From Zygnema cylindricum (taxonomy: Eukaryota > Streptophyta > Zygnematophyceae > Zygnematales > Zygnemataceae): 64,000 nucleotides of DNA. Shown here piece after piece: positions 3,165 through 62,896 of the stretch. Numbering within the stretch: position 1 is the stretch's first letter; each line of letters starts with the position of its first letter. Below the pieces are notes generated by a model, which was not told where the DNA came from, searched no databases, and worked only from the letters and a program-made list of their open reading frames with translations. The stretch lies in contig JBBHKE010000248.1 of assembly GCA_037447655.1 (NCBI GenBank), positions 226,501-290,500 of the forward strand. The letters run 5' to 3'. The position numbers and the translations under genes were made by a program.

Positions 3165-4213
3165 TGTAGAAACTAATGGTTTTATTAGTATTTTCTAGGT
3201 CTGAAAAGAAATATAGAAGTCGAGGCAGTCTATCTCTAACTTCTCTCTCCAACTCTCAAACTTGTCGCAGTCACTGAGAAATTGGAGAGGAAGCTAGAGC
3301 CATGGCTACCTTGGCTATCCTGAGGTTTACGGGAATTTTATATTAGGGTTTATATATTTAATTAAAATGTATGTGCCGGCGGCAGGATTTGATCCTTGTA
3401 CCTGCCGGCCGGCAGACACAATGTAGCCGGTAGCCCTAGCCGTTTCATCTAGCGGTGGTGTTACCTAGCATATAGTTTGATAATTATTTATATATGTATA
3501 CAAGCGATAAACCATTTAACTAGAATTAATTACGGGATACATAGATCCAGTAATATGTAATGTACGACTTACGGTACGGACATAAATCAGTACCGCGCAT
3601 TTGTTTCGTAAATGAAACAAATACCGCGCATGTATTTATTACGGCTACGATTAAAGCCGAATTTAATCGGACGGCCGGGATTAGCGCCGAGATCGCGGAG
3701 GAAGATTTCCGCGGTTTGTGGCCATCGCCACATCGGATGACGCGTGGCGAAATTCCGTTGGATTGTGGAATCTCCGGAGATTATGGCACCGAATCCGGAT
3801 TTGACATGTGTCGACTTTTTGGCCTTGTCGTACAATATCCGTACATAAAGTACACCGGCAGCTGTACTTTTGCGTACGGAACTCAATTCTGATTGGTTCC
3901 GTACATCAGTAGATAGAGTCTGTGAGAGAGATAGGACTTAGAAAAATTAGAAGATAGGACCCTCTCTCCCAGAGAGCTTCTGTACAAAAGGTCAACTTTG
4001 ACCCTCCATAACTTACTGCTCAGGGGAGCAAATTCAGAGATTCTTTTTGCTATCGACTCAGGGGAGTCTTGTCTTCACAGGGGTGAAGTTGGTCAGAGTT
4101 TTTGTCTGCCAGGGTGGCAGTTATTTTTGCTTAAACACAAAGGGGTCAGGATTATCCTAGAGGCTTCTTGGAAGCTGTCCACTCTGAGGACTTATGGAGG
4201 TCTCAGAGTTTCA
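3165..4213 (+). repeat. 5' LTR of element A1
   Basis: 1049 bp, TGTAGAAACTAATGG to GAGTTTCA. Features in order: GTATTTTCTAGGTCT; stem-loop with arms CTCTCCAA (3245-3252) and TTGGAGAG (3282-3289) around ACTTGTCGCAGTCACTGA; palindrome AGCCATGGCT near 3298; antisense B-box (GATTTGATC on the plus strand, 3386-3394); CCAAT-type TGATTGG near 3890; ATAGGACTTAGA at 3931-3942; hairpin CTCTC/GAGAG at 3962-3976; gag ATG at 4194. A 110-codon open frame at 3560-3892 lies in U3 and has no relatives I recognise; I do not treat it as a gene. Confidence 0.92.
3931..3976 (+). promoter_or_regulatory. Probable transcription start region of A1 LTR
   Basis: ATAGGACTTAGA (3931-3942), then after about 20 bases the hairpin CTCTCTCCCAGAGAG (3962-3976). 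The same motif followed by a hairpin recurs in the LTRs of B2, C, E and H; in H it directly follows a TATATATA box. I infer that it marks the start of the RNA (R region). No ATG occurs between it and the gag start at 4194. Confidence 0.5.
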
Positions 4214-7200
4214 GGTTATGGGCCCACCCTCTAGGGTACCAATATTTAATGGAACTGGCTTCATATACTGGGAAAGTATGATGATAGGAGCTCTATGCGA
4301 AAAAAGGTTTTGGGGGATAGTGAGTGGACGATTGGGGCGTCCATCAAGTCTTGGAATTCCTCCAGGGTTTAAAGGAAGCAGATTCACCAGGAAAGAGGAT
4401 TCACCTTCAACGGAGGAAACAAAGGAAGGAGAGGTGGTGGACAAAAGAAAGGAGAAGGAGGCGACCACACCAATAGCAACTGGTTTAGCATTCATATCAC
4501 CTATTCCGAGGAACGAGGAGAATGATACTGAAACCTGGGACTTCAACAATATGGCGGCAAAGCACTTCATCCTACGCCATCTCACTCAAGGACTTGCATG
4601 TCCTCATTTGCAGGTAGAGAGGGCATCCGATCTTTGGATGGCTCTCATAGAGATGTACCGAAGTGGTACGATTCAGCAACAACAGTTGGCTGATCAGAAA
4701 GTTAAGGAGTATGTATACAAAGGGGGAAATATGTTGGATTTTTGCAATGAGCTTGCTACACTCTTCATGGAGCTAGAGAGTGCGGGTAAAGTTTTTAGTG
4801 AAAAAGAAAAAGTTAACTGTTTACTAATGAAGTTACCTGATGAGTTCGAGAACATAGTCAACCGTGTGCAGGACTTGCCGGACTCAAGGTGGATATGGAA
4901 CTCAGTGGTAGGGATGATTCTCGTTCGAGAGAATACGATTGAGATCCGAAGGGGAGGAAAGAGTGGCCAAGCCTTGGCAACAGCGACCGATTGGAGGAAC
5001 AAGGATTCCCGGAAACCAGTCAGAAACTATGGGGGTAGGGAGCGGGAAAAACAGGTTGGCGAGTTCGAACCAAGGGCTCCCAAAGGTTTATGTCATTTTT
5101 GTAAGAAACCTGGGCACTATATGGCAGAGTGCACCAAGCTAACCGAGCTTCGGTTAAAGGAGGGGCAGACCGGTGGTACCCCGAGAGGAAAGAAAAAGGC
5201 CCTTGTCACACAGGTACTTGAGGCGGAATCCGAGGACGAGGACGATGAGCTCCTTTTGGATGAGGAGTTGGAGGCGAAAACTGAGGTTGAAATTCCACGA
5301 AGGCAGAAATGTGCTTACGGTGGATTGAAAGGTGAAGCAGGCTGGATTATAGATTCAGGTGCCTCAATGCACATGTGTAAGGATAGACACCTGTTCACTA
5401 AGATAAGAAAGATTCCCACCGTAGAGATAGAGTACGGGGATGGGAGGATAGTCACCACTACTCTTGTAGGATCGGTAGATCTGAAAGTGTTAGTTGAAGG
5501 AAAGACATCCATATTAACATTCTCCGATGTATTGTTTATTCCGGAGCTGAACAAAAATCTTATCTCTACATCAGTATTAGATGATAAGGGTTTTTTCACT
5601 AGCACTAGGGAAGGAGTCTTTACTGCTAGTTTTGAGGAGGATGTCTATTTCATTGCTGAGAAAGGTAGCCATGGGATGTTTAGGCTGATCTTAAGTAATG
5701 AAACGAAGAAACTTTATTATGCTGGTGTTCATGATATTATGATGTGGCATAAGAGGCTTGGGCATGTGAATCTAGATAAGTTAAGAGAGATGAAAAAGAT
5801 GGGAGTGGTGGAAGGGATTCAGTTCAGTGAGAGTGATGATATAAGTGATTGTAGTGGGTGTGCTCAAGGTAAAGCACACAGATTACCCTTTCCAAAAACA
5901 GCCACCTACAAGGGAGAAAAACTTCTAGATCTAGTACACACAGATATTTGGGGACCGGCTAGAGTGCCCTCACCGGGGGGGAAGAGATTTATGATGACTA
6001 TAACTGATGATTGGTCTCGGTATTCCCGAGTATATTTTTTGAAAAACAAGTCAGAAGCTGAGGATTGTTTTAGACAATATAAAGCATGGAGCGAAAAACT
6101 CCATGAAACTCCAATCAAGAGAGTAAGGAGTGACAATGGTGGAGAGTATACTTCTAACCAGTTTGAGGATTTTTTGAGGGAAGATGGGGTTCAACACCAA
6201 AAGACAGTGCCAGAAAATCCTGAACAGAATGGGGTAGCTGAAAGGTTAAATAGAACACTAAGTGATAGTGCTAGAAGTATGTTGTCGGATAAGAAGATAG
6301 GAAAAAGGTTTTGGGCAGAAGCAATGAACTGTGCTAATTACCTCAAAAATAGAGTTCTTACTTCAGCTATAAAAGATCAAACACCTTATGAGAGATGGAC
6401 AGGCCAGAAACCAGACTTATCTCATTTAAAGGTTTTCGGCAGTCAAGTATTCAGTCTAGATACTGATCGGTCCAATTGGAAGCTAGATCCTAAAGGAAAA
6501 CCGGGATACTTATTAGGATATGATGAGGATGTTAAAGGATATAGAGTTTATGATCTAAAAAGAGAAGATATAATCTTAGTAAAGCATCTAGTAGTTATGG
6601 ATGAAGGAAAGTCTGTGGATCCCTTCAAATATACAAAGTCAGTAAAAATCAGATTTGAGTCAGAAAATTCTGATGACTTTGAGCTTCCTAACTATCCAGG
6701 TTTTAGAGACGATGACATTCTTGCAGGAACAAATCAGACCGAAAAGGACTCGGCTGTGGAAACTCCAGTGACAACTCTACTCGAAGCGGAAGACGTGGTG
6801 GAAATTGATTCGGAATCAAGGGATAGGGGAGAAGCCGAGTTTGTTCGAAAGAATCCACGAGAACCATCTATTCCGGCCTCAGATTTTGAGGGAGGGAGGA
6901 GAAGTAGCAAAAGACTGCAAGAAAAACAGGTTAATAACAAGGTAACTAAACTATCTCATCAAGATGAACCTCAAACTTATCGAGAGGCGATGACTTGTCC
7001 AGAAAGAAACCGGTGGAAGACAGCCATCAATGAGGAGATGGCTTCAATCATGGCAGCCGATACTTGGGAGCTGGTGGACTGTCCACCTAACCGAAAACCA
7101 ATCGGTTGTAAGTGGGTTTTCAAACTGAAACTGAACCCAGATAACACAATCGAGCGCTACAAGGCCAGATTAGTGGCAAAGGGATTTACACAAAAGGAAG

Positions 7201-8552
7201 GAATTGACTACGAGGAAACCTTTGCCCCGGTGGTCAGATTTCCCTCCGTCCGCATACTTCTCAGTTTAGCAGCGGCGGAAGACATGGAAGTGCACCAGAT
7301 GGACATCAAAACAGCCTTTTTGCATGGAGAATTAGAAGAGGAGATCTTCATGCGACAACCCGAAGGGTTTGTGGAAGAAGGAGAGGAGAGTAAGGTATGC
7401 CGGCTGATTAAATCTCTTTATGGTTTGAAACAGGCGCCCCGACAGTGGAATAAGAAGCTTGATGAGTTACTTACCGGTCTAGGATATATTCGGATCAGCT
7501 CAGATCACTCAATCTATGTTTTCGAAGATGAGGAAGGTTTTATATTTATTGCAATTTATGTTGATGATTTGCTTGTTTTAAGTAAATCAATGGAAAAAAT
7601 TAATAAACTGAAAACCGATCTTAAGGGGAGATTTGAAATGAAGGATATGGGGGAAGCAAAATATATTTTGGGAATTCAAGTAGAGAGAGACCGAAAAAGA
7701 AAAATTATAAGATTGACTCAAAAGGAAGCAATAGGAAACATGCTTGAAAAATTTCAAATGGATAAAGCTAATAGTTGCACAACTCCAATGGAATTGAAGA
7801 AGGGAAGTGAGGGGAGTGAGGAAGAAGGAGTCATAGTCTTAGACGAGGAATTATCTCCTGAAGAACAGAAGTTCATGCAGACTATTCCTTACAGGCAAGT
7901 AGTGGGAAGTCTAATCTATTTTATGAATTGTACCCGACCGGATTTAGCTGCAGCTGTAGGAGTGCTGAGTAGAAGTCTAAATGCTCCCACTAAGAAGGAT
8001 TGGGAGGCAGCTAAGAGAGTCCTTAGATACTTGGTAGGAACTAGAGATCTATGGTTGCATTTGGGTGGGGAGAATACTGACATCACTACTTGGAGTGATG
8101 CCAGTTATGGTGATGCTCCGATGAGGAGATGTACTTCTGGATATGTATTATATGTGGGTGATGGGGCTTGCTGTTGGAGTAGCAAACAGCAAAAGATTAT
8201 TGCTCAGTCCACCATGGAGGCTGAGTATATGGCCTCTTGCTCTGCTGTAAAAGAATTGATGTGGGTCAAGTCTTTGCTTGGTGAGCTTGGTCACCTTAAG
8301 AGTGGTGTGCAGAAAATATTTTGTGATAATCAGGCAGCAATCGCTATTTCTGCCAATCCTAAACACCATTTTAAAGCCAAACACATGGACATCAGACTCA
8401 GCTTTGTTAGAGAGAAAGTAGAAAACAAAATAATCAGTTTAGAGTACAGACCAGATAGTGAGATGGTAGCAGATATGATGACCAAACCTGTGCCTTCCCC
8501 TAAGCTAATTTTTTGCAGGGAGAAGTGTGGTCTGAAATTAAAGATTGACTAG
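4194..8552 (+). CDS. Intact copia Gag-Pol polyprotein of A1
   Basis: Single 1452-residue frame with everything needed for copia transposition. Gag with its conserved start (MEVSEFQVMGPPSRVP) fills roughly 1-290. A CCHC knuckle (CHFCKKPGHYMAEC) is at 300-313. The aspartic protease active site DSGA is at 387-390. The integrase zinc-binding HHCC residues are H519, H524, C553 and C556, and its catalytic triad is D584, D647 and E683 (35 residues between the last two). Reverse transcriptase has its YVDD box at about 1122-1125. RNase H follows, with WSDASYGDAP and STMEAEYMA. The domain order protease-integrase-RT-RNase H defines Ty1/copia. The first ATG lies 20 bases inside the LTR and a second in-frame ATG lies in the primer-binding site; I chose the first because no ATG precedes it in the leader. 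Gag and Pol are not separated by a stop or frameshift, so the Gag:Pol ratio must be set another way. Confidence 0.95.
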   Translation: MEVSEFQVMGPPSRVPIFNGTGFIYWESMMIGALCEKRFWGIVSGRLGRPSSLGIPPGFKGSRFTRKEDSPSTEETKEGEVVDKRKEKEATTPIATGLAFISPIPRNEENDTETWDFNNMAAKHFILRHLTQGLACPHLQVERASDLWMALIEMYRSGTIQQQQLADQKVKEYVYKGGNMLDFCNELATLFMELESAGKVFSEKEKVNCLLMKLPDEFENIVNRVQDLPDSRWIWNSVVGMILVRENTIEIRRGGKSGQALATATDWRNKDSRKPVRNYGGREREKQVGEFEPRAPKGLCHFCKKPGHYMAECTKLTELRLKEGQTGGTPRGKKKALVTQVLEAESEDEDDELLLDEELEAKTEVEIPRRQKCAYGGLKGEAGWIIDSGASMHMCKDRHLFTKIRKIPTVEIEYGDGRIVTTTLVGSVDLKVLVEGKTSILTFSDVLFIPELNKNLISTSVLDDKGFFTSTREGVFTASFEEDVYFIAEKGSHGMFRLILSNETKKLYYAGVHDIMMWHKRLGHVNLDKLREMKKMGVVEGIQFSESDDISDCSGCAQGKAHRLPFPKTATYKGEKLLDLVHTDIWGPARVPSPGGKRFMMTITDDWSRYSRVYFLKNKSEAEDCFRQYKAWSEKLHETPIKRVRSDNGGEYTSNQFEDFLREDGVQHQKTVPENPEQNGVAERLNRTLSDSARSMLSDKKIGKRFWAEAMNCANYLKNRVLTSAIKDQTPYERWTGQKPDLSHLKVFGSQVFSLDTDRSNWKLDPKGKPGYLLGYDEDVKGYRVYDLKREDIILVKHLVVMDEGKSVDPFKYTKSVKIRFESENSDDFELPNYPGFRDDDILAGTNQTEKDSAVETPVTTLLEAEDVVEIDSESRDRGEAEFVRKNPREPSIPASDFEGGRRSSKRLQEKQVNNKVTKLSHQDEPQTYREAMTCPERNRWKTAINEEMASIMAADTWELVDCPPNRKPIGCKWVFKLKLNPDNTIERYKARLVAKGFTQKEGIDYEETFAPVVRFPSVRILLSLAAAEDMEVHQMDIKTAFLHGELEEEIFMRQPEGFVEEGEESKVCRLIKSLYGLKQAPRQWNKKLDELLTGLGYIRISSDHSIYVFEDEEGFIFIAIYVDDLLVLSKSMEKINKLKTDLKGRFEMKDMGEAKYILGIQVERDRKRKIIRLTQKEAIGNMLEKFQMDKANSCTTPMELKKGSEGSEEEGVIVLDEELSPEEQKFMQTIPYRQVVGSLIYFMNCTRPDLAAAVGVLSRSLNAPTKKDWEAAKRVLRYLVGTRDLWLHLGGENTDITTWSDASYGDAPMRRCTSGYVLYVGDGACCWSSKQQKIIAQSTMEAEYMASCSAVKELMWVKSLLGELGHLKSGVQKIFCDNQAAIAISANPKHHFKAKHMDIRLSFVREKVENKIISLEYRPDSEMVADMMTKPVPSPKLIFCREKCGLKLKID
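4214..4228 (+). promoter_or_regulatory. A1 primer-binding site, anticodon-arm type
   Basis: GGTTATGGGCCCACC starts at the first base after the LTR. It is the exact complement of GGTGGGCCCATAACC, the anticodon arm of plant initiator tRNA-Met as I remember it. This is internal (half-tRNA) priming, as known for Drosophila copia and yeast Ty5, rather than priming from the tRNA 3' CCA end. The site lies inside the gag frame and encodes V-M-G-P-P. Confidence 0.8.
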
Positions 8553-9102: not shown

Positions 9103-10151
9103 TGTAGAAACTAATGGTTTTATTAGTATTTTCTAGGTCTGAAAAGAAATATAGAAGTCGAGGCAGTCTATCTCTAACTTCTCTCTCCAACTCTCAAACT
9201 TGTCGCAGTCACTGAGAAATTGGAGAGGAAGCTAGAGCCATGGCTACCTTGGCTATCCTGAGGTTTACGGGAAATTTATATTAGTTCGGGTTTATTTATT
9301 TAAAAGGTATGTGCCGGCGGCAGGAATTGATCCTTGAACCTGCCGGCCGGCAGACACAATGTAGCCGGTAGCCTTAGCCGTTTCATCTAGCGGTAGTGTT
9401 ACGTAGTATATAGTTTGATAATTATTTAAATATGTATATGTGCGATAAACCATTTAACTGAAATTAATTACGGGATACATAGATCCAGTAATATATAAAG
9501 TACGACTTACGGTACGGACAAAAATCAGTACCGCGCATTTGTTTCGTAAATGAAACAAATACCGCGCATGTATTTATTACGGCCACGATTAAAGCCGAAT
9601 TTAATCGGACGGCCGAGATTAGCGCCGAGATCGCGGAGGAAGATTTCGGCGGTTTGTGGCCATCGCCACATCGGATGACGCGTGGCGAAATTCCGTTGGA
9701 TTGTGGAATCTCCGGAGATTATGGCACCGAATCCGGATTTGACATGTGTCGACATTTTGGCCATGTCGTACAATGTCCGTACATAAAGTACACCGGCAGC
9801 TGTACTTTTACGTACGGAACTCAATTCTGATTGGTTCCGTACATCAGTAGATAGAGTCTGTGAGAGAGATAGGACTTAGAAAAATTAGAAGATAGGACCC
9901 CCTCTCCCAGAGAGCTTCTGTACAAAAGGTCAACTTTGACCCTCCATAACTTACTGCTCAGGGGAGCAAATTCAGAGATTCTTTTTGCTATCGACTCAGG
10001 GGAGTCTTGTCTTCACAGGGGTGAAGTTGGTCAGAGTTTTTGTCTGCCAGGGTGGCAGTTATTTTTGCTTAAACACAAAGGGGTCAGGATTATCCTAGAG
10101 GCTTCTTGGAAGCTGTCCACTCTGAGGACTTATGGAGGTCTCAGAGTTTCA
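9103..10151 (+). repeat. 5' LTR of element A2
   Basis: 1049 bp, same layout as the A1 LTR: stem-loop with arms CTCTCCAA/TTGGAGAG, AGCCATGGCT, an antisense B-box-like element slightly changed (GGAATTGATCC), ATAGGACTTAGA at 9869-9880, and gag ATG at 10132. Confidence 0.92.
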
Positions 10152-13100
10152 GGTTATGGGCCCACCCTCTAGGGTGCCAATATTTAATGGAACTGGCTTC
10201 ATATACTGGGAAAGTATGATGATAGGAGCTCTATGCGAAAAAAGGTTTTGGGGGATAGTGAGTGGACGATTGGGGCGTCCATCAAGTCTTGGAATTCCTC
10301 CAGGGTTTAAAGGAAGCAGATTCACCAGGAAAGAGGATTCACCTTCAACGGAGGAAACAAAGGAAGGAGAGGTGGTGGACAAAAGGAAGGAGAAGGAGGC
10401 GACCACACCAATAGCAACTGGTTTAGCATTCATGTCACCTATTCCGAGGAACGAGGAGAATGATACTGAAACCTGGGACTTCAACAATATGGCGGCAAAG
10501 CACTTCATCCTACGCCATCTCACTCAAGGACTTGCATGTCCTCATTTGCAGGTAGAGAGGGCATCCGATCTTTGGATGGCTCTCATAGAGATGTACCGAA
10601 GTGGTACGATTCAGCAACAACAGTTGGCTGATCAGAAAGTTAAGGAGTATGTATACAAAGGGGGAAATATGTTGGATTTTTGCAATGAGCTTGCTACACT
10701 CTTCATGGAGCTAGAGAGTGCGGGTAAAGTTTTTAGTGAAAAAGAAAAAGTTAACTGTTTACTAATGAAGTTACCTGATGAGTTCGAGAACATAGTCAAC
10801 CGTGTGCAGGACTTGCCGGACTCAAGGTGGATATGGAACTCAGTGGTAGGGATGATTCTCGTTCGAGAGAATACGATTGAGATCCGAAGGGGAGGAAAGA
10901 GTGGCCAAGCCTTGGCAACAGCGACCGATTGGAGGAACAAGGATTCCCGGAAACCAGTCAGAAACTATGGGGGTAGGGAGCGGGAAAAACAGGTTGGCGA
11001 GTTCGAACCAAGGGCTCCCAAAGGTTTATGTCATTTTTGTAAGAAACCTGGGCACTATATGGCAGAGTGCACCAAGCTAACCGAGCTTCGGTTAAAGGAG
11101 GGGCAGACCGGTGGTACCCCGAGAGGAAAGAAAAAGGCCCTTGTCACACAGGTACTTGAGGCGGAATCCGAGGACGAGGACGATGAGCTCCTTTTGGATG
11201 AGGAGTTGGAGGCGAAAACTGAGGTTGAAATTCCACGAAGGCAGAAATGTGCTTACGGTGGATTGAAAGGTGAAGCAGGCTGGATTATAGATTCAGGTGC
11301 CTCAATGCACATGTGTAAGGATAGACACCTGTTCACTAAGATAAGAAAGATTCCCACCGTAGAGATAGAGTACGGGGATGGGAGGATAGTCACCACTACT
11401 CTTGTAGGATCGGTAGATCTGAAAGTGTTAGTTGAAGGAAAGACATCCATATTAACATTCTCCGATGTATTGTTTATTCCGGAGCTGAACAAAAACCTTA
11501 TCTCTACATCAGTATTAGATGATAAGGGTTTTTTCACTAGCACTAGGGAAGGAGTCTTTACTGCTAGTTTTGAGGAGGATGTCTATTTCATTGCTGAGAA
11601 AGGTAGCCATGGGATGTTTAGGCTGATCTTAAGTAATGAAACGAAGAAACTTTATTATGCTGGTGTTCATGATATTATGATGTGGCATAAGAGGCTTGGG
11701 CATGTGAATCTAGATAAGTTAAGAGAGATGAAAAAGATGGGAGTGGTGGAAGGGATTCAGTTCAGTGAGAGTGATGATATAAGTGATTGTAGTGGGTGTG
11801 CTCAAGGTAAAGCACACAGATTACCCTTTCCAAAAACAGCCACCTACAAGGGAGAAAAACTTCTAGATCTAGTACACACAGATATTTGGGGACCGGCTAG
11901 AGTGCCCTCACCGGGGGGGAAGAGATTTATGATGACTATAACTGATGATTGGTCTCGGTATTCCCGAGTATATTTTTTGAAAAACAAGTCAGAAGCTGAG
12001 GATTGTTTTAGACAATATAAAGCATGGAGCGAAAAACTCCATGAAACTCCAATCAAGAGAGTAAGGAGTGACAATGGTGGAGAGTATACTTCTAACCAGT
12101 TTGAGGATTTTTTGAGGGAAGATGGGGTTCAACACCAAAAGACAGTGCCAGAAAATCCTGAACAGAATGGGGTAGCTGAAAGGTTAAATAGAACACTAAG
12201 TGATAGTGCTAGAAGTATGTTGTCGGATAAGAAGATAGGAAAAAGGTTTTGGGCAGAAGCAATGAACTGTGCTAATTACCTCAAAAATAGAGTTCTTACT
12301 TCAGCTATAAAAGATCAAACACCTTATGAGAGATGGACAGGCCGGAAACCAGACTTATCTCATTTAAAGGTTTTCGGCAGTCAAGTATTCAGTCTAGATA
12401 CTGATCGGTCCAATTGGAAGCTAGATCCTAAAGGAAAACCGGGATACTTATTAGGATATGATGAGGATGTTAAAGGATATAGAGTTTATGATCTAAAAAG
12501 AGAAGATATAATCTTAGTAAAGCATCTAGTAGTTATGGATGAAGGAAAGTCAGTGGATCCCTTCAAATATACAAAGTCAGTAAAAATCAGATTTGAGTCA
12601 GAAAATTCTGATGACTTTGAGCTTCCTAACTATCCAGGTTTTAGAGACGATGACATTCTTGCAGGAACAAATCAGACCGAAAAGGACTCGGCTGTGGAAA
12701 CTCCAGTGACAACTCTACTCGAAGCGGAAGACGTGGTGGAAATTGATTCGGAATCAAGGGATAGGGGAGAAGCCGAGTTTGTTCGAAAGAATCCACGAGA
12801 ACCATCTATTCCGGCCTCAGATTTTGAGGGAGGGAGGAGAAGTAGCAAAAGACTGCAAGAAAAACAGGTTAATAACAAGGTAACTAAACTATCTCATCAA
12901 GATGAACCTCAAACTTATCGAGAGGCGATGACTTGTCCAGAAAGAAACCGGTGGAAGACAGCCATCAATGAGGAGATGGCTTCAATCATGGCAGCCGATA
13001 CTTGGGAGCTGGTGGACTGTCCACCTAACCGAAAACCAATCGGTTGTAAGTGGGTTTTCAAACTGAAACTCAACCCAGATAACACAATCGAGCGCTACAA

Positions 13101-14490
13101 GGCCAGATTAGTGGCAAAGGGATTTACACAAAAGGAAGGAATTGACTACGAGGAAACCTTTGCCCCGGTGGTCAGATTTCCCTCCGTCCGCATACTTCTC
13201 AGTTTAGCAGCGGCGGAAGACATGGAAGTGCACCAGATAGACATCAAAACAGCCTTTTTGCATGGAGAATTAGAAGAGGAGATCTTCATGCGACAACCCG
13301 AAGGGTTTGTGGAAGAAGGAGAGGAGAGTAAGGTATGCCGGCTGATTAAATCTCTTTATGGTTTGAAACAGGCGCCCCGACAGTGGAATAAGAAGCTTGA
13401 TGAGTTTCTTACCGGTCTAGGATATATTCGGATCAGCTCAGATCACTCAATCTATGTTTTCGAAGATGAGGAAGGTTTTATATTTATTGCAATTTATGTT
13501 GATGATTTGCTTGTTTTAAGTAAATCAATGAAAAAAATTAATAAACTGAAAACCGATCTTAAGGGGAGATTTGAAATGAAGGATATGGGGGAAGCAAAAT
13601 ATATTTTGGGAATTCAAGTAGAGAGAGACCGAAAAAGAAAAATTATAAGATTGACTCAAAAGGAAGCAATAGGAAACATGCTTGAAAAATTTCAAATGGA
13701 TAAAGCTAATAGTTGCACAACTCCAATGGAATTGAAGAAGGGAAGTGAGGGGAGTGAGGAAGAAGGAGTCATAGTCTTAGACGAGGAATTATCTCTTGAA
13801 GAACAGAAGTTCATGCAGACTATTCCTTACAGGCAAGTAGTGGGAAGTCTAATCTATTTTATGAATTGTACCCGGCCGGATTTAGCTGCAGCTGTAGGAG
13901 TGCTGAGTAGAAGTCTAAATGCTCCCACTAAGAAGGATTGGGAGGCAGCTAAGAGAGTCCTTAGATACTTGGTAGGAACTAGAGATCTATGGTTGCATTT
14001 GGGTGGGGAGAATACTGACATCACTACTTGGAGTGATGCCAGTTATGGTGATGCTCCGATGAGGAGATGTACTTCTGGATATGTATTATATGTGGGTGAT
14101 GGGGCTTGCTGTTGGAGTAGCAAACAGCAAAAGGTTATTGCTCAGTCCACCATGGAGGCTGAGTATATGGCCTCTTGCTCTGCTGTAAAAGAATTGATGT
14201 GGGTCAAGTCTTTGCTTGGTGAGCTTGGTCACCTTAAGAGTGGTGTGCAGAAAATATTTTGTGATAATCAGGCAGCAATCGCTATTTCTGCCAATCCTAA
14301 ACACCATTTTAAAGCCAAACACATGGACATCAGACTCAGCTTTGTTAGAGAGAAAGTAGAAAACAAAATAATCAGTTTAGAGTACAGACCAGATAGTGAG
14401 ATGGTAGCAGATATGATGACCAAACCTGTGCCTTCCCCTAAGCTAATTTTTTGCAGGGAGAAGTGTGGTCTGAAATTAAAGATTGACTAG
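10132..14490 (+). CDS. Intact copia Gag-Pol polyprotein of A2
   Basis: 1452 residues, nearly identical to the A1 polyprotein. Substitutions I can see are few, for example I101M in Gag, Q741R after integrase, and M-to-I in the RT segment HQxDIKTAFLHGE. The zinc knuckle, DSGA protease site, HHCC and DDE integrase residues, YVDD box and RNase H motifs are all kept. Two copies of such a long frame without a stop, beside several decayed relatives, mean that family A was active recently and may still be. The LTR-internal ATG at 10132 is followed by the in-frame ATG in the primer-binding site. Confidence 0.95.
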   Translation: MEVSEFQVMGPPSRVPIFNGTGFIYWESMMIGALCEKRFWGIVSGRLGRPSSLGIPPGFKGSRFTRKEDSPSTEETKEGEVVDKRKEKEATTPIATGLAFMSPIPRNEENDTETWDFNNMAAKHFILRHLTQGLACPHLQVERASDLWMALIEMYRSGTIQQQQLADQKVKEYVYKGGNMLDFCNELATLFMELESAGKVFSEKEKVNCLLMKLPDEFENIVNRVQDLPDSRWIWNSVVGMILVRENTIEIRRGGKSGQALATATDWRNKDSRKPVRNYGGREREKQVGEFEPRAPKGLCHFCKKPGHYMAECTKLTELRLKEGQTGGTPRGKKKALVTQVLEAESEDEDDELLLDEELEAKTEVEIPRRQKCAYGGLKGEAGWIIDSGASMHMCKDRHLFTKIRKIPTVEIEYGDGRIVTTTLVGSVDLKVLVEGKTSILTFSDVLFIPELNKNLISTSVLDDKGFFTSTREGVFTASFEEDVYFIAEKGSHGMFRLILSNETKKLYYAGVHDIMMWHKRLGHVNLDKLREMKKMGVVEGIQFSESDDISDCSGCAQGKAHRLPFPKTATYKGEKLLDLVHTDIWGPARVPSPGGKRFMMTITDDWSRYSRVYFLKNKSEAEDCFRQYKAWSEKLHETPIKRVRSDNGGEYTSNQFEDFLREDGVQHQKTVPENPEQNGVAERLNRTLSDSARSMLSDKKIGKRFWAEAMNCANYLKNRVLTSAIKDQTPYERWTGRKPDLSHLKVFGSQVFSLDTDRSNWKLDPKGKPGYLLGYDEDVKGYRVYDLKREDIILVKHLVVMDEGKSVDPFKYTKSVKIRFESENSDDFELPNYPGFRDDDILAGTNQTEKDSAVETPVTTLLEAEDVVEIDSESRDRGEAEFVRKNPREPSIPASDFEGGRRSSKRLQEKQVNNKVTKLSHQDEPQTYREAMTCPERNRWKTAINEEMASIMAADTWELVDCPPNRKPIGCKWVFKLKLNPDNTIERYKARLVAKGFTQKEGIDYEETFAPVVRFPSVRILLSLAAAEDMEVHQIDIKTAFLHGELEEEIFMRQPEGFVEEGEESKVCRLIKSLYGLKQAPRQWNKKLDEFLTGLGYIRISSDHSIYVFEDEEGFIFIAIYVDDLLVLSKSMKKINKLKTDLKGRFEMKDMGEAKYILGIQVERDRKRKIIRLTQKEAIGNMLEKFQMDKANSCTTPMELKKGSEGSEEEGVIVLDEELSLEEQKFMQTIPYRQVVGSLIYFMNCTRPDLAAAVGVLSRSLNAPTKKDWEAAKRVLRYLVGTRDLWLHLGGENTDITTWSDASYGDAPMRRCTSGYVLYVGDGACCWSSKQQKVIAQSTMEAEYMASCSAVKELMWVKSLLGELGHLKSGVQKIFCDNQAAIAISANPKHHFKAKHMDIRLSFVREKVENKIISLEYRPDSEMVADMMTKPVPSPKLIFCREKCGLKLKID
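10152..10166 (+). promoter_or_regulatory. A2 primer-binding site, anticodon-arm type
   Basis: GGTTATGGGCCCACC, identical to the A1 site and again directly after the LTR end TTTCA. Confidence 0.8.
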
Positions 14491-56598: not shown

Positions 56599-58652
56599 CT
56601 ATGAAGAAACAGGATCCACTAAGCCGGCCAATAAGAAAGTTGCTTCTTCGTCCCGTATTATAGCAAGCCCACTTGTACCGTGTTTTAAGAGACCCAGGGT
56701 GGCCATATCTGCAAGAAGAAAACAAAAAACAAAAACACCAACACTCACACCATCAACATTTTGGTTTTAAATTTTCGATAAAAAATTTCGTTTGGAGTGC
56801 GGACAACTTATGCACTAACAAATTTCTGTAGCTTTATTAACGAGAAAGGATTGGTCTCCTACCACCATTGATGTGTTGCAAAATATCTATGAGAAGCGCC
56901 GGGTTGAAACCGATATTGATGGACGCTCCCTCGTACTCCACTTCCATCGAAGCCTGGAGACAAGGAGCTCAATACTATCATCACAAGCGCCCTGTAAATT
57001 TGTAACTTTTAAAAAACCATTCTCCTTTCAAGTGTATGGTGACGGCCAGAGTAAGGTTAAGTATATTCGAGTGCCGCTAATGGAGCATAATAGTGATAAA
57101 CACATACATTGGGATGAACATATCATTATACTTTTTCGTTAGATTAAATAAGTTATGTTATGTGTTTTATAGGAAAGTAGCTTTTTAAAGAAAATATAAT
57201 CATATTTAATCCAATGGACTAAAATTTAATAAGTAAGAAAAACAAGGATGAAAAGAAAGTATGAATATAGGACCCCAAAACATTTGAAATGAACTTCACA
57301 ATTTACCGAAAAAGCTCAAAGACACACAGGTACACACACAAAAATAAAAGCCAGCGAAGCCAGAAAGGAAATGCTTTGTCAATTTCTGCCGTAAATAGTA
57401 TGACCTACAACAGTATTGAATCGTTTAGAGCCTTGAAGACTTTAATATTTTACACCAGTCTGTATCCTTTTTTTTGTGAAAAAATAGCAAAAGTACACCG
57501 TGTATCGTTACAAGTGTTAATGTTCTTTTCGCCACTTAAAACATTTTTTCTCCGTCCACACATGTCTAATATCAATTGGAGAGCCAATCCCAAGGTGAGA
57601 ATTTTTCCTTTCAATCCCAACCATCGGACTAACAAACCGACAAGTGTGCATGGGGGAAAAGATGTTTTTAAGTGGTGAAAAAAACATTAACACTAATAGC
57701 AATACATTGTGTATCTTCCGCGCATAACAAAAACAAGGCTAGGCTGCCAAAAACGACAAAGCAAAAATCTTACAAAGATGTGTCGCCTTACCTCATATTC
57801 TCCTACAGTAGCGCTGGTGGCTCGAAGAGTCAACAGACCGGTGCTTAACGATATTTGAACCGCCTTTGAGTTTTTGTCATTTGCCTTGCCGCTAAAAATG
57901 GAGATTTTCCGAAGATGAGATATCAATTCTTGGCGGTCCGCAGTTACCCTTACCTGCATCAATATATCCTCAAGTTGAACTGTTATCCTGAAAGTGGGAT
58001 TTACAACAATCGTAACTCGGCAAAAAAAAAAAACCAGCAGCTTCTCAGCAAAAAATTAGACGAGTCCTACAATTGGTGTTACTGGCGCAGAGATCGAAAT
58101 TTCCGTACAGAAAACTGTACAATTTTGTGGAAAAAGCAACATATTTCTGTACGGTTACGGTGATTAGCAAGTATTCCCAGTATGTATGACTACCATAATA
58201 TATATGACGACCATTAGACACAAGTTCCAAATCAATGACAAAGGAATTTTTCTGGAGTATTGATGTTTATGCAGAGAATGTAGGAAAGTAACGTAGGGTA
58301 GGGTACACAACAGTCTTGACACTGCAAATACTTACAAAACACAAGCAGCTCATTGAAAAGGAGAATAGAAAAGCATAATCGAACAACTCTCTTCAAGTTT
58401 TATTATTGTTGCAATACTATGTGTCATGTGAGGCATCCTTGAAGTGGAGCTCCTAAGTCCAACAAGCACTCTGTCCAGCTTGAATTGTTGGAAAGTGGAA
58501 ACCATGTGAATCGAAACAACGGGATTTTTCAGCCCAAATTGCCATGCCATATTGTTTATTAATTTTTATTTTTATTTTAACAAATGTTTTGTTTGGCTAA
58601 GAATTTTGTATAGACATTCTCTCATGCATTTGACAAAAAAACTGTATGTTTT

Positions 58653-58686
<34 letters not shown>

Positions 58687-61600
58687 TAGTTCGAAACATG
58701 AAAAACTCAGCCAGGCCGAACCAACTCCAAAAAAGACGCACAAAAATTGCATGCACTAATGTTCCCAAACAAATACAGATGCCAATTTTCAAACCATTCA
58801 TATTCCTATATGAACTCACTTGAGGCTCCCTTTTCAGTAATGGGGCGATATCAGGATACTCGCCAACCAGCAATTGACTACCCACTGCAGTGCTGTAGGA
58901 AAACTCCCCCTCCCCCAAACCGAAAAAGCAAACAAAACGCCAAGATTTCAACTGATTAGAGGTCAGTCAGTAACCAATGTTTATCGAGATCACATCAAAT
59001 GTGAATGCATTTTTGCTAATGTTTGGTGCCCGTTTTTCTTGGCCCCTGAACATAAAATAGCGTTATTAGTATTGACTATTTTTTTCTTAACGCTAATTTG
59101 GTTAGCGGTTGAAAAGCGTCCACATTTCTTGGACCTGAATTAGAATTAATATTTCACTAAAATAAACTTCATGCCATATACTGCTTAACGCTATAAGCAA
59201 TTCCCGGTGTAATACAAGACAGGTTACGGATCCAGAGTATACTCTTCAGATTGTCATAATGAGCTACATGCTAATAAACAAAGGGAACGCATTAGTGTAG
59301 AGTCATCAGCCCCAACGCAAAAAGAGACTCTCCAAAGTTTATTATATAATAGTTTATTAAACAGATTCAGCCATAGAGGTTAGACGCTACCTTACAACGA
59401 TACGCACTTATGTATGTTTCCATTCTCATCCCAGCCCCGGTTCCAATAAGCACATTATTACAGTAAGTAAGTTCACCCCTGAATGCTTATAGAACTTCAG
59501 TAGTGATGGTTTCGATCTGTTTTGAGCGACCAAGCCTTAGTTAGTCTATGTAGAAAAGTTTCTCACAGGTTTTATTCCTTTTTTTTTAAATTGGGGTATT
59601 GTCACATTTTCTAAATCCTTCTTAGAAAAGAAACTCATGTGCGCCGATACCCTCTGAACAGTCCTTATTCTTACCCATCCTGGAGATGTACTGCGATTCT
59701 CTCACGTTGCAGTTCAAGGACAACCTTCTCTCGATCTTTCTCCTTGGCAGCCATCTGTGCTTTTCTTGAGGTTGCCTTTGACAATCCCCCTAAAAGGCGA
59801 CAAATTTCATCCACTGATCTCAATGGTAAAATAAAGCTGCCACTGAAATTTGGATCTACCTGTTCCTCAACCCATAAAGTAAGAATTTTATCAAGACTGT
59901 CCTCGACTGCCGAGCACATGGAAAGGTGGAAATGAAAGTTCATGCCAACATCCCAGTGGGATTCATCTCCCTGAAAACCAGCACAAAGAACACCGAGGCA
60001 TGAACCTAAGGCGTATGAAGACAGGACTATTCTCCATGCGTTGAAGGCAAAAAAAAAAAGTTTTTTGAGTGCCTTGCCTTTGGAGTAAAGTTGAGTCGGC
60101 CACACAGCCTCCCATCTGTGGAAATCAGGAGAGCTTGGCCACCAGACATGCTAAGGTAAACACTATTTATATTTTGTCTATCCTCGTCATCACGTGCCGC
60201 GGCAATTTTTGCACGAAGCAAAGCATCGCGAAGGACTCCACGTGAGACCTCAACCTGTATTGTATTGAAAAGTATTGAATTGTAAAGTAAGGCAAGTCAT
60301 GGATGATGGATCAACAATCCAAGTTCCCATTCACCCTCTCTGGAATTTCACTTTTTAACAGAAACATCCACAATAACAGTGTCTCGACATTCCCTACTTC
60401 GCTCCAGCTGTCGGCCTTAACAAGGTAACCAGTCCACCGTCTGTGGTTTAGAAAGAAAGAATGCGTTTTTATTCCTTAGAAAGAATGACCTTATCCAAAA
60501 TACATGGTCCTTGTTGTCTGATCCCTCTGACATCATGATTGTGCAAAGCATTAACATCAATCCTCGTGCTTTTCCAACGTGCCTCTGACAAATATGACAT
60601 AACTTTTGCATGATAAGCCGTGTTAAGGCTTGTGAGTTCGCATCTCTTAAAAATGTAAGTGAACTGCCTAAAATCATTTATTTAATCACTGTTTAGTCCA
60701 CAGTATCGCTATGTCGCCAAAGGATTCCTTGTGTAACTCAGCTGCATCTAACAACTTGGAACGTCGAACCATAAGCTGAATCTTTTATAGCTTATTTTAC
60801 CCAATAAGACTCGATTCTAACACCGAATGACTTCCTTTCCTAAGCTAAGGTGCCAGAATAGACATTTGAAATGGGTTGACATGCGAGACAGATTCAATGC
60901 CTCCAGATTAGCCATCGACCCAAGCTCCCTTTCTCACCTTCACAGCAGGTTCCACTTTTGGCATAGCTGGAAAATCTCCAGCATATTCCCCGCGTAAAAC
61001 AGCCATGGCTGACTTGCCACTCTTGAGGGTTATACCTGCTCCATCCTTCCCAGCGCTGATCTAGCACTCATACATCATGTCCCAATAGCAAAAGCCCCCG
61101 TAAGCCTCTGAAGCCTGTTTTATGAACATTTACGTCTCCTTGAACCATGGATTACCGACCATTTGCCCTCCAAATGACAATGCAGTTACCTGGTTGTGCA
61201 GAAAAATCATGCCATCCACCATAATTCAACACCTGGTTGTTAACGTCCCTGCGTTCTTACAGCATACAATCACAATTCATTTACACAAGGCACGTGTTTC
61301 TTTGGCACCCTGCGAGTTTGGCCAGAAACTGCTTCAGGACCATAGCATGGCAAGTTATAGAGATACTATTGTGAAATAGCAATACTATTGTGATATAGCA
61401 AGAAGATCATATTATAACAATAATATTGTGCTGTAGCAATACTAATGTGCTATAGCAATGGGAAGAGGCGAGCACCTCCACAACTGACGTTGGACCCTCG
61501 TGGCCTAGCAGATCATATAATGGTCTGGCAGGAACTGCTGCAATCCCTCCGCTTGCTACTGATTCTAACACCACAGGACTACGCATGGCAATAAACCCGT

Positions 61601-62896
61601 CTGTTGCCATAACTGTCGCGTAACCTTTGGAATTGTCATCCACTACAACTTCCAACAAAACTGCAATCCAAAAAATCCAGCCAACACCGTTCCGAGAAAA
61701 TGACGAAACAGCAAAGATCTACCTTCAAAAACATAGAGAGCTAGTACCCTGTACTAAGCAAATCAGGGAAGAGAACATTCCAATTGCCCTGTGTAACCTT
61801 TACAAGGGAGGAGGGAAAAAGGGAGAGGGAGAGGGAGGGGGAGGGGAAGAGGGAGAGAGAGAGGGAGAGGAGAGGGAAAGGCGAGGGACAGGGAGAGGAG
61901 GGGACAGACAGGGACAGGAAGAGGACAGGACAGGGACAGGGAGAACAGGAAGAGGGAGGGAGGCGGAGCAGAGGGGAGGGAGGAGAGGGGGAGCAGGGAG
62001 AGGAGAGGAGGAGGAAGGCAGAGGGAGAGGGAGAGAGAGGGAGAGGGAGAGGGAGAGGGAGAGAGAGAGCGAGAGGAATAGAGAGAGGCAGAGGGAGGAG
62101 GAGAAGAAGGAGAGGGAGGAAAACGAATGGGTAAAGAGAGAGGGAGAGAGAGAGGGAGAGTTCCGAGAATGCGTACTGTGTTCAAGGAGAGAGTTTAGCC
62201 CAGACTTCTTGTTTATAGCCGGCAATACTCGCCCTACTGCTGCCTTGAGGTCTTCAGCCCTCACTGTTATTTTTAGCGCAAATGCATTGACAGAGTCAGC
62301 CACTTCATGGTCCTTTGAGATAGCCATCACCATAGTACCTGTCGAACATTTAAAGAGGTATTTTTAATAGTAGCAACATATACGATATATACATTGACAT
62401 GACGTCAAACAAAGTTACTCCTTGCAAGCTGATATAATACATTCAAAATGGAACATTGCTTTATAGATAATATGGTTTGTTTGCGGACTAGCCATCATCA
62501 GGAGAAATAAATATATAGTCGCTTCATGAAAAGCAAGCAGCGAAAATGCATATCATAGTCCAGAAAATTTAGTCACTCACTGAAAATTCGCAAACCATAG
62601 CCATCATCGTGGTTAATATCAGAAAAAGAAAGAGAGGTTCTTCTTCCGGTATTGCGTTGTACATTTTTGTAACACAACAAAGTGTTGCAAAAAACCGCCT
62701 TCTTCTTTCTTTGTATTCTTGCCATTGTCTCCCTCCTAACATAAAATGATGATTTTACACCGGAATCGCATTGCTGATAATTTGTAAGTCGAAAAATATT
62801 ATTTTCCAAAAACTGAAGATGGGAGAAGCTGTACAAAGCAAAAGAGGAAGGAATGGAATTCAAAGTGGATGAAAAAGAACAGCAACTGACAGCCAT
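56599..62896 (-). CDS. dnaN: Bacterial-type DNA polymerase III beta sliding clamp, ten exons, probably plastid-targeted
   Basis: Exons (minus): 62896-62581, 62338-62177, 61660-61476, 61060-60938, 60254-60078, 59970-59675, 58892-58820, 57953-57792, 56953-56866, 56708-56599. They sum to 1692 nt: 563 residues and a TAG. All introns are GT-AG except intron 5 (GC-AG). The beta clamp is a ring that tethers replicative polymerase to DNA; bacterial chains of about 366 residues have three similar domains, and all three are visible. Domain 1 (about 125-255) has FALKITVRAEDLKAAVGRVL, LLEVVV, ATDGFIAM, AAVPARPLYDLL and GEYAGDFP. Domain 2 (about 263-440) has VEVSRGVLRDALLRAKIAAA, ISTDGRLCG, FILPLRSVDEICRLL and LLVGEYPD. 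Domain 3 (about 445-563) has VRVTADRQELISHLRKISIF and MEVEYEGASINIGFNPALLI. The first 120 or so residues are Ser/Arg-rich with an MAVS start, like a transit peptide. Frame stays open upstream to an ATG at 63013. It is no eukaryotic PCNA, which has two domains. Confidence 0.9.
59971..60077 (-). other. GC-AG intron in the clamp gene
   Basis: The exon ends CCAAAG and the intron starts GCAAGG, the usual form of a rare GC donor; the acceptor is GTGCTGGTTTTCAG. Splicing here keeps phase 0 and joins NFTPK to GDESHWD. The intron is 107 bp, the shortest in the gene. No GT donor nearby keeps the frame and the alignment. Confidence 0.75.
61370..61465. repeat. Short AT-rich repeats beside exon 3
   Basis: About four degenerate copies of AATACTATTGTGATATAGC in intron 3, starting 11 bases past the exon 3 donor. 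Confidence 0.6.
61803..62165. repeat. (GAGAGG)-type repeat in intron 2 of the clamp gene
   Basis: About 360 bases of nearly pure purine on the plus strand, made of GAGAGG, GACAGG and GGAGAG units. In the gene's transcript it is a long pyrimidine tract ending about 12 bases from the exon 2 donor and lying some 140 bases before the exon 3 acceptor. Both strands show long open frames here (Arg/Glu/Gly-rich or Ser/Leu/Pro-rich) that reflect composition only. Confidence 0.85.
62581..62896 (-). other. Exon 1 of the clamp gene: N-terminal targeting extension
   Basis: Encodes residues 1-105 plus one base, ending ATTTTCA before donor GTGAGT. It starts MAVSCCSFSSTLNSIPSSF, is rich in Ser, Thr, Arg and hydroxylated residues and poor in acidic residues for its first 80 positions, and has no counterpart in bacterial clamps. 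I infer a plastid (or dual organelle) transit peptide. Confidence 0.65.

Follow-up and report, generated by a model that had tools for sequence, protein, structure and literature searches.

The window, a stretch of 64,000 nucleotides from the alga Zygnema cylindricum, lies on a 555-kb contig of an assembly of 352.8 Mb in 2,689 contigs. On its minus strand, from 62896 to 56599, ten exons chain in phase into a gene for a protein with the three domains of a bacterial-type beta sliding clamp. The corrected coding sequence comprises 1,584 bases, giving 527 codons and a stop, and is interrupted by nine introns, eight of them GT-AG and one (intron 5) GC-AG. The parts of the gene, with two introns of particular note, are as follows:

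62581..62896, minus strand: exon 1, with the ATG at 62896; the first 105 codons, covering most of the transit-peptide-like extension
62177..62338, minus strand: exon 2, where the extension ends and clamp domain I begins (Pfam domain I from residue 127)
61661..62176, minus strand: intron 2, which includes a long simple repeat rich in G and A around 61810-62160
61476..61660, minus strand: exon 3, clamp domain I
60938..61060, minus strand: exon 4, end of clamp domain I
60078..60254, minus strand: exon 5, start of clamp domain II, with STDGRLC (E. coli ATDGHRL) and a GC donor at its end
59860..60077, minus strand: intron 5, GC-AG, 218 nt; 59860-59970 is coding in a 564-codon model
59675..59859, minus strand: exon 6 with corrected start, clamp domain II
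58820..58892, minus strand: exon 7, end of domain II and start of domain III
57792..57953, minus strand: exon 8, clamp domain III
56863..56953, minus strand: exon 9, clamp domain III, with IGFNPALL
56599..56708, minus strand: exon 10, C-terminus and stop; AGLVD then PVSS in place of the bacterial MPMRL tail

Ty1/copia sequences make up much of the window. Two plus-strand open reading frames of 1452 aa (4194-8552 and 10132-14490) start 5.9 kb apart, and gag, integrase and reverse-transcriptase domains of Ty1/copia type occur in the former. The stretch 15854-50670 is strewn with fragments of Ty1/copia elements, chiefly on the plus strand, and a copia-type domain scored over the Pfam cut-off in 12 of 17 scanned reading frames. 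Within the repeat of intron 2, at 61810-62160, the listed reading frames of 140-246 aa look like repeat artefacts.

The first full chain to be rebuilt had 564 codons, the length given in an earlier note on this DNA. The ten in-phase exons of that note stood, while its codon count fell with a single wrong acceptor: intron 5 has a GC donor after 60078 (AAG/GCAAGG) and its acceptor (AACAG) at 59860/59859, not at 59971/59970. The shift drops 37 residues and keeps the frame. The longer model was discarded, as these 37 residues at the exon 5/6 junction are missing from a relative, P0001, and two Pfam domains score higher once they are removed.

P0001, the one close relative found in a protein search with the window clamp, is 521 aa long and present on six contigs, the longest of 2,050 bp. 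Its alignment with the 527-aa window protein contains a gap-free core of 408 residues, 362 of them identical (89%), which covers junctions 2 to 9 (eight of the nine). The N-terminal extensions are more variable, with 61 of 112 positions identical and 8 gap positions. The exon 1/2 junction, at codon 106, falls in this variable part, where a gap of two residues lies two positions away, and its placement is less certain. The window gene spans 6.3 kb, whereas no P0001 contig is longer than 2,050 bp and its 521-aa frame is uninterrupted; the best reading of P0001 is a spliced transcript, and a less likely one is a genomic copy that lacks introns. The window gene is nuclear and intron-rich and looks expressed. 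The earlier description, in which a nuclear gene with introns encodes a bacterial-type clamp of three domains behind a transit-peptide-like extension, is borne out, and the gene is conserved in a second species.

Membership in the clamp family was assessed with domain models and with a predicted structure. In the 527-aa protein all three Pfam clamp domains pass their cut-offs: N-terminal at 28.8 bits (cut-off 24.4), middle at 30.1 (27) and C-terminal at 54.0 (27), over residues 127-254, 266-397 and 404-500. The three DNA_pol3_beta domains that had been claimed in order are therefore confirmed with this model; the 564-codon version passed only the C-terminal domain (54.8), its middle and N-terminal domains scoring 23.8 of 27 and 23.5 of 24.4. 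The score against the dnaN model TIGR00663 likewise rose from 114.9 to 124.9 bits, and the resulting E-value of 3.5e-36 excludes chance similarity to clamps. Both the window protein and P0001 (123.3 bits) miss the TIGR00663 cut-off of 137.65; P0002, the best bacterial match to the window clamp, reaches 274.5. No PCNA family match occurs among Pfam matches up to E 0.1 for the 527-aa protein. The structure prediction that the earlier note had proposed, run on the ortholog P0001, returned a confident full clamp fold. AlphaFold, given P0001 with 27 further sequences, yielded a mean pLDDT of 74.4 and a pTM of 0.71 with an ordered core, residues 1-117 being predicted disordered (pLDDT under 50). Among the matches of this model listed against the PDB (50 rows in each of two comparisons), all are bacterial clamps or their complexes. 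By sequence and by a fold predicted for P0001, the window protein is a member of the beta sliding clamp domain family.

The search for further relatives and copies depended strongly on the query. An exon-blind search of the whole assembly (352.8 Mb, E 0.001) with PF02768 returned no match, the window gene itself included; such a search is blind to clamps split in this way, and its null result means that the assembly holds no unsplit bacterial dnaN above that threshold. With the window clamp as protein query, P0002 scored 117 bits and the next bacterial match 84. A two-sequence profile of the window protein and P0001 retrieved P0001 and three weak clamp matches in a second protein search, and one gammaproteobacterial MAG among bacterial and archaeal genomes. 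The absence of other eukaryotic matches says little, because the same protein search missed chlamydial clamps that score far higher.

These clamps were reached through P0002, which as a query retrieved 3,237 proteins at E 1e-20. The best 120 of these, P0002 included, were used, and the other 119 share 57-65% identity with P0002. The set is called chlamydial because of the phylum or family names on five of the 119: Chlamydiae or Rhabdochlamydiaceae on four and, on the fifth, ‘Verrucomicrobia bacterium’. Against the profile of the green-lineage pair, these 119 of the best 120 score 104.5-148.3 bits (median 128.8). The maximum is 81.9 bits among 29 other protein-search matches, listed as matches to the query itself, and 82.0 bits (Azospirillum) among clamps from 12 further loci (L001-L012). 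Three cyanobacterial clamps score 43.2, 36.1 and 24.6 bits.

Phylogenetic analysis gave the same picture. The first tree (IQ-TREE, LG+C20) held 65 rows: the green-lineage pair, 22 of the 120 chlamydial-type clamps (seven of the highest scorers among them), the 29 other matches and the 12 locus rows. In this tree, drawn like the others with a midpoint root, the branch uniting the pair with the chlamydial rows received 100/99, and the chlamydial rows without the pair 92/80. A second mixture-model tree, minus 10 long rows and plus 10 chlamydial rows, gave 100/99 and 89/76, and a six-state recoded tree recovered the same grouping with an SH-aLRT of 94.3 and a bootstrap of 89. The stem of the pair is long, at 2.84 changes per site in the first tree and 3.59 in the second, where the program warned that this long branch meets other long branches. 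In AU tests on groups picked after the first tree had been seen, forcing the pair together with the three cyanobacterial rows, all plasmid-borne copies, was rejected (p-AU 0.0005), as was forcing it with four alphaproteobacterial rows, two named and two placed by the tree (p-AU 0.0004).

Among the sampled clamps, the window clamp falls with Chlamydiae and apart from cyanobacteria and alphaproteobacteria. Group-specific residues add weak support: the pair shares 10 of 60 chlamydial signature columns, as against 3/32, 2/41, 1/16 and 1/13 for four other groups (7/102). A source in the Chlamydiae or the wider PVC assemblage, rather than in the cyanobacterial ancestor of plastids, is probable from these sequences. 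A ‘PVC-like’ instead of a strictly chlamydial origin is compatible with these trees, in which the PVC bacteria are represented by the chlamydial-type rows. The endosymbiont origin suggested before, if taken as cyanobacterial or mitochondrial, is not supported, given this grouping and the rejection of both forced alternatives.

The surface on which bacterial clamps bind their partners was compared residue by residue, in the numbering of the E. coli clamp. Two lists of partner-binding residues appear in the text of PMC11139829, one comprising R152, L155, T172, G174, H175, R176, L177, P242, R246, V247, V360 and M362, the other H175, N320, Y323, V344, M362, P363, M364 and R365. The window protein keeps R152, T172, G174, P242 and N320 and shows conservative changes at three positions (L155 to I, V247 to L, V360 to L). 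The remainder are replaced: H175 by R, R176 by L, L177 by C, R246 by P, Y323 by L, V344 by G, M362 by A, P363 by G, M364 by L and R365 by V. P0001 carries the same letters at all listed positions. The 22 chlamydial rows present K at 175 (22), R (21) or K (1) at 176, L at 177 (22), R at 246 (22), Y or F at 323 (22), and M, P, M and R at 362 to 365 (22 each). Among the 41 other bacterial rows, 175 is H in 32, 176 R or K in 41, 177 L in 40, 323 Y or F in 41, 362 M in 38 and 363 P in 40, while 246, 364 and 365 vary. The six best-kept positions (175, 176, 177, 323, 362 and 363) are the telling ones, because they are nearly fixed in these 41 rows. Neither green-lineage protein has an MPMRL-like tail, although the C-terminal alignment could be shifted by one or two residues. 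Both proteins have a rewritten version of the canonical partner pocket (subsites I and II) on a conserved fold. By this tree, the pocket would have changed in the common lineage of the two green-lineage species, once it had separated from the sampled Chlamydiae, with the core staying 89% identical. With the canonical pocket rewritten and the TIGR00663 score below its cut-off, the window protein would not be filed as a functional DnaN.

Other functional positions are retained in part. The dimer contacts I272/L273 are I or L and F in the green-lineage clamps, and L and F in the chlamydial rows. R24, R73 and K198 are kept or conservatively changed; R80, F106 and E298, which the chlamydial rows mostly retain, are changed. 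The window protein has G212 at the position of R80, an arginine common to all 22 chlamydial rows. R103 and E304 are changed too and already differ in the chlamydial rows. R73, R80 and K198 are taken here to be DNA-facing positions.

The N-terminal extension is Ser-rich. The first 35 residues of the window protein include 12 S, T or A, one acidic residue and no K or R; the corresponding part of P0001 has one K or R. Mitochondrial presequences typically contain basic residues, and a Ser-rich, base-poor extension fits a plastid transit peptide better. The composition of the extension suggests that it probably sends the clamp to the plastid.

The reading preferred here is that the window gene encodes a divergent bacterial-type beta clamp whose source was Chlamydiae or a near relative within the PVC group, carried as a spliced nuclear gene in a green-lineage host (probability roughly 0.6). 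Its precursor would be imported into plastids via the extension, and the mature protein would probably close as a head-to-tail dimer ring around organelle DNA. Because the pocket used by bacterial polymerases and by the delta subunit of the clamp loader is rewritten, the re-tailored surface might hold a different plant partner, an organelle polymerase or a repair factor, rather than a surviving Pol III; the odds of this are put at slightly under even. The plant organelle polymerase POP is highly processive without accessory proteins known to the authors of PMC4166229, according to the text of that paper, so the clamp would be an addition to it, perhaps for repair or long tracts. A T7-phage-like replisome has been proposed for Arabidopsis organelles in PMC6554949. 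The full chain of proposals, in which a plastid clamp of chlamydial descent holds a plant partner such as POP, and the resulting machinery for replication or repair differs from both cyanobacterial Pol III and the T7-phage-like replisome, is speculative and less likely than not.

Several other explanations bear on the same observations. A cyanobacterial clamp moved from the plastid ancestor to the nucleus, and still at work in a bacterial-type plastid replisome, would account for a spliced nuclear gene with a transit-like extension in a green-lineage host. It is improbable given profile scores of 24.6-43.2 bits for cyanobacterial clamps against 104.5-148.3 for the chlamydial set (119 of the best 120), the AU rejection at p 0.0005, and a rewritten pocket for Pol III, the clamp-loader delta subunit and repair partners. 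That the gene comes from contaminating bacteria, or is non-coding DNA read by chance as a gene, finds no argument in its favour apart from the bacterial family, and is refuted by nine introns (eight GT-AG, one GC-AG) consistent with the ortholog and by the neighbouring Ty1/copia elements on a contig of 555 kb.

Two further alternatives accept the gene and differ on its product, and both are unlikely, though much less so than a cyanobacterial descent. The protein could be a decayed or moonlighting clamp that keeps the fold and serves as a structural or regulatory organelle protein that does not encircle DNA. The replaced pocket and MPMRL tail, the missed TIGR00663 cut-off and the changes at R80, F106 and E298 all speak for it, as do those at R103 and E304, the latter pair less specifically given their differences in chlamydial rows. 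It is opposed by the gap-free core 89% identical across two species, by the confident clamp fold predicted for P0001 and by dimer contacts that are still I or L and F. Marginally less probable still, the product could go to mitochondria or to both organelles: plant POP serves both, according to PMC6523293. The extension speaks against this reading, its first 35 residues having none, or in P0001 one, of the basic residues usual in mitochondrial presequences.

The window protein differs from known systems in several respects. PCNA, the eukaryotic nuclear clamp, would be analogous in role if the window protein acts as a clamp, whereas the three domains of the latter match DnaN models. From bacterial DnaN of the chlamydial branch it differs in its nuclear gene with nine introns, its N-terminal extension of ~119 residues, its rewritten partner pocket and C-terminal tail, and its score under the NCBIfam DnaN cut-off. 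POPs, family A polymerases, are described in the text of PMC4166229 as processive as single subunits, and are thought to have replaced polymerase III (texts of PMC6523293 and PMC8227023). The clamp would share their compartment, and a term search for ‘clamp’ found the word in neither the main text of PMC4166229 nor the texts of PMC6523293 and PMC8227023, all on plastid or organelle replication. The text of PMC2412073 describes a plastid system with a bacterial Pol III subunit that came from firmicutes; that case is likewise a non-cyanobacterial Pol III subunit but concerns a clamp-loader gene, plastid-encoded and in another lineage.

The chlamydial affinity is shared with the Chlamydia-derived genes of Plantae described in PMC2376095, PMC2490706 and PMC2394758, and a putative plastid-targeting sequence is reported for 37 of 55 such proteins in the text of PMC2376095. 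By term search, the words polymerase, clamp and dnaN are absent from the main texts of all three papers, as are ‘replication’ from that of PMC2376095 and ‘DNA replication’ from those of the other two. Among the titles and abstract openings returned from an open-licence library, none reports a beta clamp encoded in a plant or algal nucleus; a genome annotation may already carry the window gene under a generic name. The beta clamp and chlamydial plant genes are known kinds; their combination and the rewritten pocket appear to be new. If green-lineage nuclei conserve a beta clamp, the parts list of organelle replication would have to be changed. The chlamydial source, if true, would mean that the debated set of chlamydial genes in plants includes a core replication protein, and the rewritten pocket would offer a direct handle on whatever partner now binds there.

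Elsewhere in the assembly, the RuBisCO large-subunit family had no match in the 352.8 Mb; plastid contigs, and plastid insertions with the RuBisCO large-subunit gene, therefore seem absent from it. Light-harvesting family matches number 88, many of them gene pieces, and they cluster in both orientations on contigs C519, C2590, C1116, C610 and C1077. Compared with solved structures, the light-harvesting protein of locus L016 has as its top match the LHCI-2 long chain (620 residues, 503.6 bits), followed by 5xnl_3 (421.8) and 7oui_2 (420.8, chlorophyll a-b binding protein 3) and then by matches of 416 bits and below. This suggests a streptophyte host, 5xnl and 7oui being presumably from pea and Arabidopsis, respectively, and the L016 protein presumably of the Lhcb3 type.
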